Positions 1 through 58,405 of a stretch of 58,405 nucleotides of DNA are shown piece by piece. Within the stretch, counting starts at the first letter, position 1. Every line of letters starts with the position of its first letter. A program made the translations under genes and the position numbers. The stretch comes from Acidimicrobiales bacterium (GTDB lineage: Bacteria; Actinomycetota; Acidimicrobiia; Acidimicrobiales; RAAP-2). The stretch spans positions 1-58,405 of the forward strand of contig JADGOE010000013.1 in assembly GCA_017883135.1 (NCBI GenBank), given 5' to 3'. The notes beneath the pieces were generated by a model, which saw nothing but the letters and a program-made list of their open reading frames with translations, searched no databases and was not told where the DNA came from.

Positions 1-74
1 TCTGCACCGGTCTGCACCGGTCTGCCCCGGGCCAGCGCCGGGCCAGCGCCGGGCCTGTGTCGGGCTTGTGTCGG
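1..74. repeat. Short tandem repeats at the window edge
   Basis: The window opens with back-to-back short repeats. Two copies of TCTGCACCGG (1-10, 11-20) and a variant TCTGCCCCGG (21-30) are followed by 11-base units: GCCAGCGCCGG twice (31-41, 42-52), GCCTGTGTCGG (53-63) and GCTTGTGTCGG (64-74). No coding frame accounts for them. They lie upstream of the first gene's promoter and may continue outside the window. Confidence 0.7.
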
Positions 75-52084: not shown

Positions 52085-52558
52085 GTGCGTTGTCCATGGT
52101 GCCTGGCTGACGACGACCGAGTCGTCGATTCCCGGGTGGCCGAGGACGCCACGGCCATCAGGCGGCGGCGGGAGTGCGCTGGCTGCGGCCATCGCTACAC
52201 CACGTTCGAGCGGATCGACGAGGTCCCCTTGATGGTGGTCAAGCGGTCCGGCAGCAGGCAGGCGTTCGATCGCGGAAAGGTGATCGACGGGCTCCGCTCG
52301 GCAACGAAGAACCGGCCGGTCACCGAAGATCAGCTCGAAGCGTTGGCCCAACAAGTGGAGGATGCATTGCGAGAGGACGGGTCGGAACCCACCTCCGAGC
52401 AGGTGGGCCTCGCGGTGCTCGAGCGCCTGCGGTTCGTCGACGAAGTCGCGTACCTGCGTTTCGCCAGCGTCTACAAGGGGTTCGAAGGAGTGGACGACTT
52501 CCGCCGCGAGGTGGGCCTTCTCACCAAGACCACCGCCCCCAAGCGGCCTGAGGGTTGA
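52085..52558 (+). CDS. nrdR: Transcriptional repressor NrdR
   Basis: 157 residues. The N-terminal zinc ribbon has Cys pairs in RCPWC and ECAGCGHRYTTFER. The ATP-cone domain follows (VVKRSGSRQAFDRGKVIDGL, then VGLAVLERLRFVDEVAYLRFASVYKGF). NrdR senses ATP/dATP and represses ribonucleotide reductase operons by binding NrdR boxes; none of those operons is in the window. It starts with MRCPWC, the standard N-terminus, right after a leaderless-type -10 box. The place after lexA and the LysM gene matches mycobacteria. Confidence 0.97.
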   Translation: MRCPWCLADDDRVVDSRVAEDATAIRRRRECAGCGHRYTTFERIDEVPLMVVKRSGSRQAFDRGKVIDGLRSATKNRPVTEDQLEALAQQVEDALREDGSEPTSEQVGLAVLERLRFVDEVAYLRFASVYKGFEGVDDFRREVGLLTKTTAPKRPEG

Positions 52559-52561
52559 GGC

Positions 52562-53272
52562 GTGGCGGAGCTCGTCGACGGGGTACCGACCAGGGCGCTT
52601 GCGATCTACGCGCACCCCGACGATCCCGATGTTTCGTGCGGAGGAACGCTGGCAGTATGGGCCAGAGCCGGGTGCGAGGTGCGGGTCGTGCTGTGCACGG
52701 ACGGCGGCAAGGGCACCACGGATCCCCAGTTGGATCAGCGGAGGCTGGCGGTGCAGCGGGCGGCCGAAGCCGCTGAGGCAGGCGCGCTGATCGGTCTGGC
52801 GGGTCAGGAGTTCCTCGGCATTGCCGACGGCGAGCTGACCGACGATCGGGAGTTCCGCGAGGTACTGGTGGCGGCAGTCCGTCGGTTCCGACCGGACGTC
52901 GTACTGTGCCCCGATCCCACTGCGATCTTCTTCGGTCAGGAGTACTTCAATCACCGTGACCACCGGGTCCTCGGCCTGGCGGCCCTCGACGCCGTCGCTC
53001 CGGCTGCGGCACTGCCGCACTACTTTCCGGGTGCGGGACCTGCTCACCAGGTTTCCACGGTTCTTCTGTCGGGAACGCTCGAACCCGATGTGTGGGTGGA
53101 CATCTCGGAAACGGTAGATCTCAAGGGTGAGGCGGTCGGTTGCCATCGGAGCCAGTTCCCCGACGGAGTCGAATGGGCCGCCGCAGCGGTCCGGCTGGGC
53201 GCCGAGGAAGCCGGCCGGCAGGCCGGCGTGCCCTTTGCCGAGGGTTTCCGGAGGCTGCGCCTCGGTGGGTGA
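52562..53272 (+). CDS. PIG-L/LmbE family deacetylase
   Basis: 236 residues. The zinc site is the AHPDD motif in AIYAHPDDPDVSCGG plus the later NHRDHR. The general base is the first Asp of HPDD. The family includes MshB and Mca of mycothiol metabolism and GlcNAc-PI deacetylases, but the protein is shorter than MshB, so mycothiol activity is not assumed. The GTG start lies three bases after the nrdR stop, and dinB overlaps its end by eight bases, so nrdR, this gene and dinB look like one transcription unit. Confidence 0.9.
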   Translation: MAELVDGVPTRALAIYAHPDDPDVSCGGTLAVWARAGCEVRVVLCTDGGKGTTDPQLDQRRLAVQRAAEAAEAGALIGLAGQEFLGIADGELTDDREFREVLVAAVRRFRPDVVLCPDPTAIFFGQEYFNHRDHRVLGLAALDAVAPAAALPHYFPGAGPAHQVSTVLLSGTLEPDVWVDISETVDLKGEAVGCHRSQFPDGVEWAAAAVRLGAEEAGRQAGVPFAEGFRRLRLGG

Positions 53273-54767
53273 GGACCTCGGGGTAGGACCCGTGGATCGC
53301 AGCCGCACCGGGCCTGCCCGGAGCGGCGGCCCCACGGACCGGGTGATTCTCCATGTCGACATGGACGCTTTCTTCGCCTCGGTCGAGGTACTCGACGATC
53401 CCTCGCTGGTAGGGCTGCCGGTGATCGTGGGGGGGAGCGGCCGCCGTGGGGTGGTGGCCGCCTGCACCTACGAGGCCCGGATGTTCGGCGTCCACTCCGC
53501 AATGCCGTCGTCGGTGGCCCGTCGGCTCTGTCCGTCGGCGGTGTTCGTCGATGGTCGGTTCCACCGCTACGTCGAGGAGAGCGCCAAGCTGCACGCCATC
53601 TTCGAATCGGTGACGCCGCTGGTGGAGGGAATCTCGCTCGACGAGGCGTTCCTCGACGTGACCGGTTCGCGCCAACTGCTCGGGGACGGTCCGTCGATTG
53701 CCGCCGCCATTCGCCGCAGAGTCAGCGACGAGTTGGGATTGACCTGCTCGGTGGGGGTGGGGCGGTCCAAGTTGATGGCCAAGCTGGCCTCCAAGGCGGC
53801 CAAACCGGCCGCATCGAGGTCCGGAATCGAGGCCGGAGCAGGTGTGGTGGTGGTCCCCGGGGCGGATGAGTTGGAGTTCCTCCACCCACTGCCCGTACGG
53901 GCGCTTTGGGGTGTGGGGCCGGTTACAGGGCGTCGGCTCAACGCCCTGGGCGTGCAGACCGTGGGTGAGATCGCCGCACTCCCACCCAGAACCTTGGAGC
54001 GCTACCTGGGCGTGGCGGCCGGGGTCCACCTGGCCGCACTCTCCCGAGGGGAGGACCGGTCCCCGGTGGTTGCGGACCACGCAGCCAAATCGATCGGCCA
54101 CGAGGAGACCTTCGCGTCGGACGTCTGGGACCGTGACGACTTGCGTCGCCATCTCCTGGGGATGGTGGACGCGTCGGCTACCACGCTCCGAAGCTCCGAG
54201 CTTGCAGCCCGCACCATCACCGTCAAGCTCCGGTTCGCCGACTTCTCGCTGATCACGAGGTCCCACTCGATGGGGCTGGCGATCGACGCCTCGCCGGCGA
54301 TCGACGCCGTGGCCTCGGCGCTCCTGGACTCAGTGGAGCTGGACCAAGGTGTTCGGCTGCTCGGGGTCGGCCTTTCGGGGTTCGCCGACCCCGAGGCAGG
54401 GACGCAGCTGAGCCTCGATCTGGATGGCTGTGAGGCTGGAAGCGTGCACGTTGCCCGATCGGGAGATCCGGCTCCCGAGGGGAGCGGCTCCGGTGCCGCG
54501 GCCGGTAAGGGATCACCGGGCCACGGCCCACCCGGGGCGGAGGCGCTGCTGGTCCGGGCCCACGACGAGGCGGAGCGGCTCCAGGAGTCGTGGGGTTCGG
54601 TCACCGCCGCGGTCGACGCCATCCGGGCCCGCTACGGAGGAGCGTCGGTAGGGCCGGCGTCGCTGGTCGGGGCCGATGGATTGCGGGTCCGGCACCGGGG
54701 GGAGGCCCAGTGGGGTCCGACCGCACCGAACTCGCCGGAATCCGATGGTCGGAGCCCGGGCGCCTAG
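53265..54767 (+). CDS. dinB: DNA polymerase IV (Y family)
   Basis: About 500 residues from GTG 53265 (GGAGG ten bases upstream); GTG 53292 or 53343 would remove the unconserved N-terminal 10-26 residues. The catalytic acidic residues are in ILHVDMDAFFASVE and GISLDEAFLDV. The fingers and thumb motifs YEARMFGVHSAM and SVGVGRSKLMAKLASK are clear. QLSLDL near residue 385 is a beta-clamp binding motif. The C-terminal extension of about 110 residues (AVDAIRARYGGASVGPASL) occurs in actinobacterial Pol IV proteins. No LexA box was found directly upstream, so SOS control is not evident even though lexA is close. Confidence 0.94.
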   Translation: MGEDLGVGPVDRSRTGPARSGGPTDRVILHVDMDAFFASVEVLDDPSLVGLPVIVGGSGRRGVVAACTYEARMFGVHSAMPSSVARRLCPSAVFVDGRFHRYVEESAKLHAIFESVTPLVEGISLDEAFLDVTGSRQLLGDGPSIAAAIRRRVSDELGLTCSVGVGRSKLMAKLASKAAKPAASRSGIEAGAGVVVVPGADELEFLHPLPVRALWGVGPVTGRRLNALGVQTVGEIAALPPRTLERYLGVAAGVHLAALSRGEDRSPVVADHAAKSIGHEETFASDVWDRDDLRRHLLGMVDASATTLRSSELAARTITVKLRFADFSLITRSHSMGLAIDASPAIDAVASALLDSVELDQGVRLLGVGLSGFADPEAGTQLSLDLDGCEAGSVHVARSGDPAPEGSGSGAAAGKGSPGHGPPGAEALLVRAHDEAERLQESWGSVTAAVDAIRARYGGASVGPASLVGADGLRVRHRGEAQWGPTAPNSPESDGRSPGA

Positions 54768-54770
54768 TAA

Positions 54771-54776
54771 TATGAT
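54771..54776 (+). promoter_or_regulatory. Strong -10 box TATGAT
   Basis: TATGAT, one base from the TATAAT consensus, starts four bases after the dinB stop in an unusually AT-rich gap. It would produce a 5' leader of about 125 bases for the DUF3040 gene. No good -35 is present. Confidence 0.5.
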
Positions 54777-54798
54777 CTGTGTGTCTGATCAAGTATTT

Positions 54799-54836
54799 CC
54801 CACTACGTCCCGATGCTTCGGGTGTGGGCTGCTTTT
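54799..54836 (+). terminator. Two-part hairpin followed by TTTT in the DUF3040 leader
   Basis: CCCAC (54799-54803) pairs with GTGGG (54824-54828) and encloses CCCGA-TGCT-TCGGG (54809-54822). Four T follow at 54833-54836. It is the only hairpin in the window with a T-run. It could terminate dinB transcription, or attenuate the message that starts at TATGAT 54771. Confidence 0.5.
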
Positions 54837-54907
54837 GGGTGGAGGTTGCGCGAGGATGACATCGGCGATCACCGCTGGATTTAATGACGGGTGGAGGGAA
54901 CGAGCCT

Positions 54908-55282
54908 TTGCCGCTCTCTGAGCACGAACAGCGCATACTGCACGAATTGGAGCAGTCCCTCTATCAGGAGGACCCCGACTTCGCGGAACGGGTGCGTTCG
55001 GAGACGGTCTACCGGCATGCAGGGCGGTACTGCGTCTGGTCGGCACTCGTGTTCGTGGCCGCATTGGTCTTCATGTTCTTCACCTTCTCGACGTCCGTTG
55101 TCCTCGGATTCGTGGGTGTCGTGGTGATGTTCCTCTCGGGCGTGGTGTTCGCCAACAACGCCCGCCGGATGGGCAAGGCCGGAATCGACGACATCTCCAG
55201 ATCGCTCCACAGCCACAATCTGAGCAGCACCGTCCACGATCCTCGCGACTGGATCCGTGGTCGCTTCCACCGCGACGACTGA
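54908..55282 (+). CDS. DUF3040 membrane protein
   Basis: 124 residues from TTG 54908, chosen because it gives MPLSEHEQRILHELEQSL, the standard beginning of this family, and has GGAGGG ten bases upstream. An ATG at 54884 would add eight residues. After about 40 residues there are two membrane helices (WSALVFVAALVFMFF and VLGFVGVVVMFLSGVVF), then a charged tail ending near GRFHRDD. DUF3040 proteins are small actinobacterial membrane proteins without an assigned function, often near division or cell wall genes, which fits the mraZ end of this window. Confidence 0.85.
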   Translation: MPLSEHEQRILHELEQSLYQEDPDFAERVRSETVYRHAGRYCVWSALVFVAALVFMFFTFSTSVVLGFVGVVVMFLSGVVFANNARRMGKAGIDDISRSLHSHNLSSTVHDPRDWIRGRFHRDD

Positions 55283-55328
55283 CACTTCGGCCGCGGCAAT
55301 GCCTCCCAGGGGAGCTATCGGTCCGGAC

Positions 55329-56243
55329 ATGAGCGCGGCGCTCCACGCCGAAGGACCACCCGTCGTGTTGGCGGTGGACATCGGCGGCACGAAGATGGCG
55401 GCGGCGGTGGTGGACGGTTCCGGCCGCCTGATCGATCAGGCACGGGTTCCCACGCCGGTCTCCGATGATCCGGAGGCGGCGTTCGAGACGCTGGCCGCTC
55501 TCATCGACCGGGTCCGATCGGCGGTGCCGCTCCAGCCGGTCGTCTGCGGTGTGGGATGTGGCGGGCCGATGGAGTGGGGCGGCGAGGCCGTCACCCCGCT
55601 GAACATCCGGGCCTGGAAGGGCTTTCCGCTCCGGAGCCGCCTGGCCGAAGTGGTGGGTCTGCCGGTGGCGGTGGACAACGACGCCAAAGCGTTGGCCCTG
55701 GGCGAGGGCTGGCTCGGTGCAGCGCGGGGCGTTCCCGACTATCTGGCGATGGTGGTGTCCACCGGGGTCGGAGGCGGAATCGTGCTCGACAACCGGCTAC
55801 TGGACGGTGTGGCCGGCAACGCCGGACACATCGGGCACGTGGTGGTCGAGCCGGACGGCCGGACGTGCGTGTGCGGGGGCCGGGGATGCCTCGAGGCCGA
55901 GGCATCCGGAACGTCGATCGAGGCGACGACCGGTCGCCCGGCATCGGAAGCGTCCGAGGAGGTGCGCCGCCGGACCGGAACGTTGGTCGGGCGGGCCGTG
56001 GCGTCGGTGGCCAACCTGCTGGATCTCGAACTGGCCGTGGTGGCGGGCTCGGTGGCCCTCGGATTCGGCTCGGTGTTCTTCGAGGCCGCCCAGAGGGAGA
56101 TCGGGCTCCGCTGCCGCCTCGACTTCTCACGGGCCACTCGGATCGTTCCGGCGGGGCTCGGTGCCGATGGGCCGTTGGTCGGAGCGGCGGCAGTCGGTCG
56201 GCGGGCCCTGGCCCCGGCGCGACTGGGCGGTGAGGCGGCGTGA
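55329..56243 (+). CDS. ROK family sugar kinase (glucokinase-like)
   Basis: 304 residues from ATG 55329; GTG 55257 and ATG 55299 are in-frame alternatives but the conserved part begins at VVLAVDIGGTKMAAAVV. That is the phosphate-1 loop of the actin-like ATPase fold. Sugar-binding and catalytic residues lie in AVDNDAKALALGE. The ROK zinc and glucose motif is GNAGHIGHVVVEP followed by CVCGGRGCLEAEASG, with its Cys cluster. Phosphate-2 is MVVSTGVGGGIV. It probably phosphorylates glucose or N-acetylated hexoses with ATP. The next small gene overlaps its stop (GTGA). Confidence 0.93.
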   Translation: MSAALHAEGPPVVLAVDIGGTKMAAAVVDGSGRLIDQARVPTPVSDDPEAAFETLAALIDRVRSAVPLQPVVCGVGCGGPMEWGGEAVTPLNIRAWKGFPLRSRLAEVVGLPVAVDNDAKALALGEGWLGAARGVPDYLAMVVSTGVGGGIVLDNRLLDGVAGNAGHIGHVVVEPDGRTCVCGGRGCLEAEASGTSIEATTGRPASEASEEVRRRTGTLVGRAVASVANLLDLELAVVAGSVALGFGSVFFEAAQREIGLRCRLDFSRATRIVPAGLGADGPLVGAAAVGRRALAPARLGGEAA

Positions 56244-56539
56244 GCCGGCCCCCGACCGGTGACCGGTCCGGGAGCGCCCTGCCAGCGGTGGTGTGGGCGG
56301 TGGCCCGGCGACCCGACCTGTGGTGGTCGGCATTCGGCGTCGTCCGCCGGCTGGCCCCGCCCGGTTGGTGGCGAGCCAGCCCCCGCCTGCCGCTTCCCGA
56401 CCGCCGGCTGTGGGAGTTCCGGATGGTCACTGCCTACGGGAGCCCCGACGCCGCCCCCCGAGCCCCGGACGTCATCTCCTACCTCGAGTGGTGCCGCACC
56501 ACCGGGCGATCCGACCGGAGGTGCGGGAGGCGATCGTGA
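56240..56539 (+). CDS. Small conserved protein, unknown function
   Basis: 99 residues from the GTG of a GTGA overlap with the ROK kinase. It is rich in Trp, Pro and Arg: ARRPDLWWSAFGVVRRLAP, PGWWRASPRLPLPDRRLWEF and RMVTAYGSPDAAP. The sequence ends with a segment EWCRTTGRSDRR. I recall short actinobacterial proteins with this WW...PLPD...YG pattern but no function for them. The overlap with the kinase argues that it is real and co-expressed. Confidence 0.75.
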   Translation: MSRPPTGDRSGSALPAVVWAVARRPDLWWSAFGVVRRLAPPGWWRASPRLPLPDRRLWEFRMVTAYGSPDAAPRAPDVISYLEWCRTTGRSDRRCGRRS

Positions 56540-56580
56540 CCCAAAAGTGCCAGAACCCCTCCGACCCGGCCCGGCCGGGC

Positions 56581-56586
56581 TAATTT
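56581..56586 (+). promoter_or_regulatory. -10 box TAATTT of the HNH gene
   Basis: TAATTT lies eight bases before the ATG at 56595, with no ribosome-binding site; leaderless-type promoter in a 55-base gap. Confidence 0.45.
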
Positions 56587-56594
56587 CCGCACCC

Positions 56595-57209
56595 ATGGAG
56601 CGACGGTCGAACGTCGGGGGGAAGACGGCGTCGGCCAAGGGCGCCGCGGCCGGAATCGACGAGCCTGTCCGCTCTCCGATGTCCCCGTCCCGAAGGGCCC
56701 TGGTGCTCAACGCCACCTTCGAGCCACTGGGCATCGTCTCGTCCCGAAGGGCGGTGCTGTTGGTGCTCGACACCAAGGCCGAGCTGGTGCACACGACCGA
56801 GCGGGTGTTCCGGGCCGAGCGGTTGAGCGTGCCGGAGCCGTCGGTGGTCCGCCTGGTCCGCTACGTCCAGATCCCTCGCCACTATCGGGTGGCGGTCAAC
56901 CGCCGAACGGTATTTGCCCGCGATGGATCCCGCTGCCAGTACTGCGGCTCTGCGGCCGAAAACCTCGACCACGTCATTCCGAGGAGCAAGGGAGGCCCCC
57001 ACACCTGGGAGAACGTGGTGGCGGCCTGTCGGCGCTGCAATACCCGCAAGGAGGACCGGCTGCCCCATGAAGTCGGGATGGTCCTGCGCAGCACACCGGT
57101 GGCACCGCGGCATCGGGTCCAGCTGCTGGCCCTGTGCGGAGGTGGCAGTGAGGACTGGAACACCTACCTCCGGACCGGCGCCCCCCTCCGGGTCCAACTC
57201 ACTGCGTGA
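56595..57209 (+). CDS. HNH endonuclease family protein
   Basis: 204 residues. A variable N-terminus is followed by RRALVLNATFEPLGIVSSRRAV, the usual opening of a widespread actinobacterial group. The HNH/zinc module is at about 115-160: RDGSRCQYCGSAAENLDHVIPRSKGGPH, given here as CQYC and LDHVIPRSKGG, then NVVAACRRCNTRK. Both zinc Cys pairs and the catalytic His are present. The group is chromosomal and not clearly linked to restriction or phage; its role is not known to me. ATG 56679 is a possible shorter start. Confidence 0.9.
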   Translation: MERRSNVGGKTASAKGAAAGIDEPVRSPMSPSRRALVLNATFEPLGIVSSRRAVLLVLDTKAELVHTTERVFRAERLSVPEPSVVRLVRYVQIPRHYRVAVNRRTVFARDGSRCQYCGSAAENLDHVIPRSKGGPHTWENVVAACRRCNTRKEDRLPHEVGMVLRSTPVAPRHRVQLLALCGGGSEDWNTYLRTGAPLRVQLTA

Positions 57210-57272
57210 GGATCGGGAACCACCGACCGAGGATAGAGCCGGCCGGCGGGCTCGACAGGCCGAACCGGTCGG

Positions 57273-57278
57273 TACCAT
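57273..57278 (+). promoter_or_regulatory. -10-like box TACCAT
   Basis: TACCAT lies 13 bases before the GTG at 57292, slightly far for a leaderless start. Low-confidence promoter for the ligase-like gene. Confidence 0.3.
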
Positions 57279-57291
57279 TCGGTCGTCGGCA

Positions 57292-58029
57292 GTGAGCCGA
57301 CGGGAGCGTGGCGTCGTGGCCGGTGGATGGAGGGTCGAGGAGCGGGCGGGGACGGCATCGGAGCTTCACGGTTCGTGGCCGGGCGTCGAGACCGAGCCGG
57401 GGGTTCGCGCAGTGGCGGTATGCCGGGTGACGGCACCTGCAGTGGTGCTCGGCTCGACGCAGCCGGAGGGGGTCGTCGACCTCCGTCGGGCCGGTGCCGC
57501 GGGTATCACGGTGGCCCGGCGCAGGTCGGGCGGCGGTGCCGTGCTGGTCGCCGAGGACGACCCGGTGTGGGTCGACGTCTGGGTCCCCTCCGGCGATGAG
57601 CTGTGGCATGCAGATGTCGGTCGCGCCTTCGACTGGCTCGGCGCGGCGTGGGCACGCGCCCTCGGTCGGATCGGCGTGCCGGGGTTGTCCGTCCATCGGA
57701 AGGGTCCTGTTGCGCCTACCCGGTGGGCGAAGCTGGTCTGCTTCGGGGGAGTCGGATCCGGCGAGGTGATCACCCCTGAGGGTCGGAAGGTGGTGGGCCT
57801 CGCCCAACGCCGGAATCGCGAGGGGGTCTGGTTCCATGGGGCCTGCGTGATCCGGTGGGACCCGGTGCCGCTCGTCACCGTGTTGGATATTCCCGAAGGT
57901 GAACGCCACGAGGCTGCATCGGCGCTCGCCGTGGCCGCAGTCGGCGTAGCCGACCTGGCCGAGCGGGACGGCGGCACCGCTCCGGATGCCACGAGCATCG
58001 TCTCCAGGTTGATCGCCGAACTGCCCTGA
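57292..58029 (+). CDS. Lipoate/biotin protein ligase-like protein
   Basis: About 245 residues from GTG 57292; GTG 57316 is possible. The fold of the LplA/BirA/LipB superfamily is suggested by VCRVTAPAVVLGSTQ, then VARRRSGGGAVLVAEDDPVWVDVWVP, in which RRSGGGAV is the ligase loop that binds the acyl/biotinyl-AMP. GRKVVGLAQRRNREGVWFHGACVI is the counterpart of the lysine-bearing strand in LplA (here Lys in GRKVVG). The protein is smaller than E. coli LplA. Substrate could be lipoate or octanoate; no lipA or other lipoate gene is near. Confidence 0.85.
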   Translation: MSRRERGVVAGGWRVEERAGTASELHGSWPGVETEPGVRAVAVCRVTAPAVVLGSTQPEGVVDLRRAGAAGITVARRRSGGGAVLVAEDDPVWVDVWVPSGDELWHADVGRAFDWLGAAWARALGRIGVPGLSVHRKGPVAPTRWAKLVCFGGVGSGEVITPEGRKVVGLAQRRNREGVWFHGACVIRWDPVPLVTVLDIPEGERHEAASALAVAAVGVADLAERDGGTAPDATSIVSRLIAELP

Positions 58030-58220
58030 TCGCGGCCGACCGGCCGGGCGGGGCCTGACCCACGCTCGGGCAAATTCCGCATTCCCACCGTGGCCGGCGC
58101 GGGTTGGTGGGATCGGGGCCCGCCGAGGTCACCCAGCCGAGTCCCCCTCCCGTGAGGACCGGTAAGGCGTCGTGCTTGTCACGTCCCGGTTTCCCGGCCC
58201 ATGCCCTGCGCGACCGGATC
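58030..58220. other. Non-coding stretch upstream of the mraZ promoter
   Basis: Part of a 323-base gap. It starts with a small stem CGGCC-GACC-GGCCG (58033-58046) after the ligase gene, which may terminate that transcript. The rest is GC-rich and shows no reading frame with coding character, no tRNA and no recognised RNA motif. Confidence 0.5.
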
Positions 58221-58226
58221 GGTCGA

Positions 58227-58294
58227 AAAGTGTGTCGAAGTGGTTGACGGGTGGGGCCATGGGGCATAAAGTGGCGCAAAGTGGTGTGAAAGGG
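58227..58294 (+). promoter_or_regulatory. Five MraZ boxes with ten-base spacing
   Basis: Two blocks of direct repeats: AAAGTGT at 58227 and GAAGTGG at 58237, then AAAGTGG at 58268, AAAGTGG at 58278 and GAAAGGG at 58288. Within each block the starts are ten bases apart, and the blocks are 31 bases apart, about three helical turns. They match the AAAGTG(T/G)-N3 form of MraZ binding repeat described in Mollicutes and are analogous to the TGGGN repeats of E. coli. They frame and overlap the promoter, which implies MraZ autoregulation of the dcw cluster. Confidence 0.75.
58244..58272 (+). promoter_or_regulatory. mraZ promoter TTGACG-17-TAAAGT
   Basis: TTGACG (58244-58249) and TAAAGT (58267-58272) have the optimal 17-base spacer. 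Transcription would begin near 58279, leaving a 5' leader of about 74 bases to the mraZ GTG. The -10 box overlaps the third MraZ box. Confidence 0.7.
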
Positions 58295-58352
58295 AGGAAT
58301 CTGAACAGTCAGGTTCTGGGCACTGCGGGGAGCATTGTGGGAGCAATCACCA

Positions 58353-58405
58353 GTGGCACGGTTCTTCGGCAGGTACGAGCACTCGCTCGACGACAAGGGA
58401 AGAGT
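58353..58405 (+). CDS. mraZ: Transcriptional regulator MraZ (5' end only)
   Basis: The first 17 codons read ARFFGRYEHSLDDKGR after the GTG, the nearly invariant MraZ N-terminus (FFGEYEHSLDDKGR in textbook members). GGGAG lies nine bases upstream. MraZ is an AbrB-fold, ring-forming DNA-binding protein that controls the division and cell wall cluster; rsmH, ftsL/ftsI and mur genes are expected beyond the window. The gene is cut by the window end at 58405. Confidence 0.93.
   Translation, partial: MARFFGRYEHSLDDKGR

Follow-up and report, generated by a model that had tools for sequence, protein, structure and literature searches.

The DNA directly upstream of mraZ in an Acidimicrobiales bacterium carries a series of short G-rich repeats around a promoter. 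Is this array an operator from which MraZ controls its own gene, and how is it laid out over the promoter? We analyzed the whole stretch of DNA that holds it, here called the window, which is the 58,405 nucleotides of contig C124 of a 2.96-Mb assembly. The contig end cuts mraZ. The end of a second contig, C122, repeats window positions 58310 to 58405 (96 shared bases, from a computed overlap), and the assembly break falls inside mraZ. The complete gene on C122 gave two PF02381 matches (E values of 2.8e-12 and 2.0e-10). We submitted nine hand-picked open reading frames of C122 to a Pfam check, and one of them had no match. The matches after mraZ corresponded to the rsmH/mraW methylase, a penicillin-binding protein (PBP), a Mur ligase, an MraY-type transferase, a MurG-type transferase, a second Mur ligase, MurB, and FtsQ. 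Therefore, the array sits in the promoter of the division and cell wall (dcw) cluster. Upstream of it, the plus strand of the window carries genes for NrdR, a PIG-L deacetylase, a DinB-type polymerase, DUF3040, ROK, and HNH proteins, and an LplA/B-type ligase (52085 to 58029). Among named records, the closest relatives carry the labels Acidimicrobiaceae or Acidimicrobiales (best identity of 93%), and many of these are genomes from bog and palsa metagenomes.

The original prediction, made from the letters of this DNA, had placed five boxes around a promoter of the form TTGACG-17-TAAAGT. All of these elements were found where they had been placed, directly upstream of mraZ. Three of the boxes fit the claimed AAAGTG[T/G] exactly, a fourth (GAAGTGG) differs from it at one base, and the fifth (GAAAGGG) is degenerate. 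Two further positions had been missed. The features are listed below. For each box, we give the start of its four-base core with the offset from the -10 element, the score against a weight matrix (PWM) built from boxes 5 and 6 of relatives, and the percentage of 57 relatives with a 17-base spacer that have an [AG][TG]GG core at that offset.

58227 to 58233, plus strand: box 1, AAAGTGT, the outermost; core GTGT at 58230 (-37); PWM 7.4; 47%.
58237 to 58243, plus strand: box 2, GAAGTGG, abutting the -35 element; core GTGG at 58240 (-27); PWM 8.6; 40% at the exact offset.
58244 to 58249, plus strand: -35 hexamer TTGACG; TTGHNN-16..18-TANNGT upstream of mraZ in 57 of 87 regions, window included.
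58248 to 58254, plus strand: box 3, CGGGTGG, in the spacer between the -35 and -10 elements; core GTGG at 58251 (-16); PWM 0.9; 81%.
58258 to 58264, plus strand: box 4, CATGGGG, in the spacer; core GGGG at 58261 (-6); PWM -1.9, the lowest of the seven; 86%.
58267 to 58272, plus strand: -10 hexamer TAAAGT, fused to box 5 (TAAAGTGG); fifth base G in 57 of 58 regions.
58268 to 58274, plus strand: box 5, AAAGTGG, overlapping the -10 element; core GTGG at 58271 (+4); PWM 11.1; 96%, partly forced by the search pattern.
58278 to 58284, plus strand: box 6, AAAGTGG, at the likely start site; core GTGG at 58281 (+14); PWM 11.1; 93%.
58288 to 58294, plus strand: box 7, GAAAGGG, in the leader; core AGGG at 58291 (+24); PWM 0.6; 95%; consensus of relatives gAAgGGGAG.
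58339 to 58343, plus strand: likely ribosome-binding site GGGAG, read from the sequence.
58353 to 58405, plus strand: start of mraZ (GTG), VARFFGRYEHSLDDKGR..., with the start as in the translation of C122, the overlapping contig, which holds the complete gene.

Read in this way, the array forms a lattice of seven cores that is nearly continuous, with steps of 10, 11, 10, 10, 10, and 10 bp. The lattice begins upstream of the -35 element, runs through the 17-base spacer (58250 to 58266) and the -10 element, and stops some 15 bp beyond the likely start site, which is expected near 58279. With about one box per helical turn, the seven positions occupy roughly one face of 68 bp of DNA. The -35 element lies between consecutive lattice positions, not in free space, and the -10 element belongs to a box. 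At box 2, the aligned columns of relatives suggest two possible registers that differ by one base. Boxes 3, 4, and 7 of the window are weak by sequence compared to boxes 5 and 6, and they are outscored by several off-lattice sites: CCAGTGG at 58350 (5.0), ATTGTGG at 58334 (4.7), ACCGTGG at 58087 (4.2), and AGTGTGT at 58229 (1.3). The claim for these three positions rests on conservation.

The original prediction had named an alignment of the mraZ upstream regions of related genomes as its check. MraZ was found in 58 of 61 genomes of the same family. Upstream regions were taken from the loci of this family and from 79 of 80 named loci (L139 was dropped, as its gene start lies off the contig). 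This gave 137 regions, of which 132 were usable; L011, L021, L025, L080, and L100 were removed for short or masked upstream DNA. After removal of redundancy, 87 regions remained, namely, the window and 86 relatives. The repeats proved to be conserved across this set. Pairs of GTGG peaked at distances of 10 bp (113 pairs versus 4.2 in shuffled sequences), 20 bp (87 versus 3.7), and 30 bp (70 versus 3.6), with further peaks at 40 and 41 bp (38 pairs each) and at 51 and 52 bp (26 and 23 pairs). A control stretch 260 to 400 nt upstream yielded 0 to 3 pairs at the peak distances, and its own maximum was 10 pairs at 14 bp. Chains of at least five cores were present in 55 of the 86 relatives (5 to 9 cores), versus about 0.07% of shuffles. 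For the window itself, 5000 dinucleotide shuffles were made from the 150 bases that precede mraZ, and none reached a seven-core chain ([AG][TG]G[GT], with steps of 10 or 11). Together, the shuffles and the control stretch from -400 to -260 rule out chance periodicity or G-richness.

The promoter is conserved along with the boxes. TTGHNN-16..18-TANNGT was detected within the 140 nt before mraZ in 57 of the 87 non-redundant regions, window included, versus none of 86 control stretches. When the fifth base of the -10 element was left free (TTGHNN-16..18-TANNNT), 58 of the 87 regions matched, window again included, and that base was G in all but one of the 58. Three of 61 promoters, which have an 18-base spacer, were excluded from the column counts that underlie the percentages in the list. 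The search pattern itself fixes the letters TTG and TANNGT, and hence offset +4, but not offsets -37, -27, -16, -6, +14, and +24; the off-lattice background for the [AG][TG]GG core has a mean of 6.5% and a maximum of 26%. Judged by these columns, the weak-looking positions inside the promoter are conserved better than the obvious outer boxes. Twenty-six of the 87 regions lack the TTG-17-TANNGT layout; 15 of them have a chain of at least three cores, and 11 have no chain beyond two. A natural long-array variant was seen at L055, where nine cores (ATGG, AGGG, and GTGG mixed) follow each other at exact 10-bp steps with no clear -35 element at 17 bp.

To follow the array further, we used R1, a sequence-only profile of 71 positions built from 51 sequences, including the window. 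Of the 58 promoters whose spacer is 17 bases long, 51 entered its alignment (A2); L032, L051, L060, L125, L126, L127, and L128 were left out by choice as divergent. In the organism's own genome the array was the sole match (62.3 bits, with the window included in the profile), and no second match was found at E ≤ 10. The exact box-pair pattern AAGTGKNNNVAAGTGK had two forward matches and no reverse match in the whole assembly, both at the array, and the reversed-pattern control had no forward match and one reverse match. As neither R1 (E ≤ 10) nor the exact pair pattern pointed to another place in the assembly, a wider regulon of long arrays was rejected. The promoter pattern TTGAC-17-TANNNT occurred 16 times in the genome (7 times for the reversed-pattern control), and by eye only the site at mraZ has the box lattice.

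Across the phylum, R1 matched 94 of 198 genomes, own included (E ≤ 0.1 and stricter filters), and 104 were without a match; MraZ was found in 189 of the 198. All of the 30 best matches, own included, were on the strand of MraZ and ended 1 to 97 bp before its start. With mraZ immediately downstream, conserved boxes, and 30 of 30 best matches at mraZ, the proposal that a good actinobacterial promoter is surrounded by an MraZ-type AAAGTG[T/G]-N3 operator is well supported. Among 68 lower-ranked matches, 49 could be checked against a listed MraZ position: 41 were directly upstream of MraZ and 8 were elsewhere, including 4 that were second hits in genomes also matched at mraZ. Outside these 49, G236 has MraZ just downstream of its match, by positions. 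Matches were present in 93 of the 189 genomes with MraZ and in 1 of the 9 without it (Fisher P = 0.037), namely weakly in G230 (E of 0.006); this co-occurrence is modest evidence, as the group without MraZ comprises just nine genomes, seven from a single genus. The latter seven (G083, G167, G188, G221, G230, G241, and G252, genus g56) are large genomes of 7.1 to 9.9 Mb in which no MraZ match was found.

The layout was also seen beyond the closest relatives. Twenty-nine other loci came from the R1 search, and 24 of them have the promoter layout; among the 12 with a 17-base spacer, a core was present at -16 in 7 and at -6 in 11. In some other families the spacer positions hold good boxes (L170, L172, L144, and L160 are examples): in L170 and L172, three successive RAAGTGG-like boxes occupy -16, -6, and +4, and the -6 position of L144 reads AAAGTGT. 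We also picked 25 genomes by hand, 23 of them without an R1 match. A putative mraZ start was located by motif in 16, and 12 of the 16 have a chain of at least three cores, against a baseline of about 10% of shuffles that were made on 150 rather than 170 nt.

MraZ assembles into rings in which each subunit contacts DNA through two loops. The MraZ of this genome is related to the MraZ chains of solved PDB structures (E of about 1e-14). In 18 aligned MraZ sequences, D13, K15, G16, and R17 and Q86, G87, and R88 are invariant and D84 is nearly so, and both motifs of the D-x-K/Q-G-R type are kept. We take the conserved residues of these motifs to be the DNA contacts.

An operator of mraZ in Escherichia coli was reportedly described by Eraso and colleagues in 2014. 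In the E. coli sequence (NC_000913), the cores GTGG, GTGG, GTGG, and AGGG precede mraZ at steps of 10, 10, and 9 bp, so core type and spacing are shared with the array studied here. Unlike here, the E. coli boxes start 13 bases downstream of the base that opens the apparent -10 element, with none in the spacer between the -35 and -10 elements (promoter elements picked by eye). Counted from that same base, the cores of E. coli K-12 (L173) are at roughly +13, +23, and +33, in a helical phase near that of +14 and +24 in our array. According to passages of PMC5282649, MraZ of Mycoplasma gallisepticum binds (AAAGTGKN3)3. This Mollicutes operator (Fisunov et al. 2016, via PMC5282649 and PMC8475190) shares with our array the 7-base box, the 3-base spacer, the 10-bp period, and the place upstream of mraZ. 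However, it has three boxes, whereas here there are seven lattice positions, three of them weak, threaded through the -35 and -10 elements. In Burkholderia cenocepacia, MraZ binds an operator fragment in electrophoretic mobility shift assays (EMSA); as excerpts of that report describe it, the operator likewise has seven-nucleotide repeats with 3-nt spacers but consists of four repeats that lie downstream of the -10 element over the start site (PMC7761207). The kind of operator is thus already known, and the array here is longer than the published ones with which we compared it, as far as the available passages of those papers describe them. Among the literature matches listed, none described an actinobacterial MraZ box array running through a promoter, and we do not claim the layout as unreported. 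The G-rich tract downstream of the mraZ promoter of Staphylococcus aureus, called a G-quadruplex in passages of PMC11796246, might be an MraZ box array read differently.

Together, these observations suggest that the array is an autoregulatory MraZ operator at the head of the dcw cluster of this Acidimicrobiales bacterium and that it acts in negative feedback, a reading to which we assign a probability of roughly 0.88. The analysis establishes the boxes, their spacing, conservation, and uniqueness in the assembly, and the link to mraZ and dcw; from these we infer that MraZ probably binds, may use all seven positions, and probably represses. MraZ would read one RAAGTGG-like box per helical turn, and one or more rings on neighboring boxes would cover both promoter elements and exclude RNA polymerase. 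As MraZ rises, mraZ, rsmH, the PBP gene, and the genes behind them would be shut off. Boxes lie on both core promoter elements and on the likely start site, and the simplest reading is therefore that RNA polymerase is blocked and mraZ negatively autoregulated. Operators reported elsewhere have three or four positions and this one has seven, so several rings or alternative registers may be involved. In Mycoplasma genitalium, excerpts of PMC8475190 report raised dcw transcripts in an mraZ mutant and a motif that occurs once in the genome, as does the array here. The same source describes more FtsZ upon MraZ overexpression in M. gallisepticum, which indicates that repression is not universal. Moreover, MtrA represses mraZ in the actinobacterium Dietzia by binding to the mraZ promoter, according to passages of PMC9602371; therefore, MraZ need not be the sole regulator at the array.

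The effects of MraZ differ between mycoplasmas, as passages of PMC8475190 indicate, and this is one point in favor of an account in which MraZ, once bound here, would chiefly activate or fine-tune: boxes 1 and 2 would assist the polymerase, and those downstream would serve as a brake when MraZ is abundant. Boxes 1 and 2 are upstream of the -35 element, a common location for activators. However, positions 1 and 2 are the least conserved, and positions 3 to 7 over the core promoter are the most conserved (position 5 partly by force of the pattern). We consider this account unlikely.

The original prediction had divided the boxes into two separate blocks, of two and three boxes, with a gap that leaves room for the -35 element and one ring that contacts both. 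Its "31-base gap" is the start-to-start distance of the second and third of its five boxes, and 24 bases lie between them. RNA polymerase would use this gap as an empty place, and the single ring would bridge it via looped DNA. The -35 element does lie within the gap, and in the window all but one of the five boxes outside it score 7.4 to 11.1, compared to the low scores of the two inside. However, the gap holds the two positions that had been missed, boxes 3 and 4, which are conserved in relatives: cores at -16 and -6 are found in 81% and 86% of the 57, versus 47% and 40% for the upstream block, and in some other families good boxes occupy these places. Lattice conservation inside the gap disfavors the two-block arrangement, which we regard as quite improbable.

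It is very improbable that the G-rich repeats are not protein boxes but act as a G-quadruplex in the mraZ promoter, along the lines proposed for S. aureus: G-rich mraZ promoters and a functional quadruplex have been reported (in passages of PMC11796246), and a motif of four G-runs of at least three with loops of 1 to 7 is somewhat commoner upstream of mraZ (8 of 87 regions) than in the control stretch (1 of 86), but the motif is absent from the window's 140 nt and from 79 of the 87 regions, and a quadruplex has no need of the A and T conserved at fixed places of the 10-bp lattice.

The reading of the array as an MraZ operator extends the MraZ box grammar, by statistics and not by eye, to a GC-rich and largely uncultured actinobacterial class. 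Natural arrays of 2 to 9 cores offer a series for testing how a ring-shaped regulator reads a periodic operator. More tentatively, in Acidimicrobiia and in part of the phylum, the dcw promoter might be written inside a continuous MraZ lattice, in which the -10 element doubles as a box and two more boxes occupy the spacer, with several rings, or one opened and spreading ring, coating the entire promoter. If this proposal, which we hold as possible rather than probable, is true, the number and quality of the boxes would set the MraZ dose at which the division genes are shut off, and the operator would work as a graded counter, not as a simple switch.
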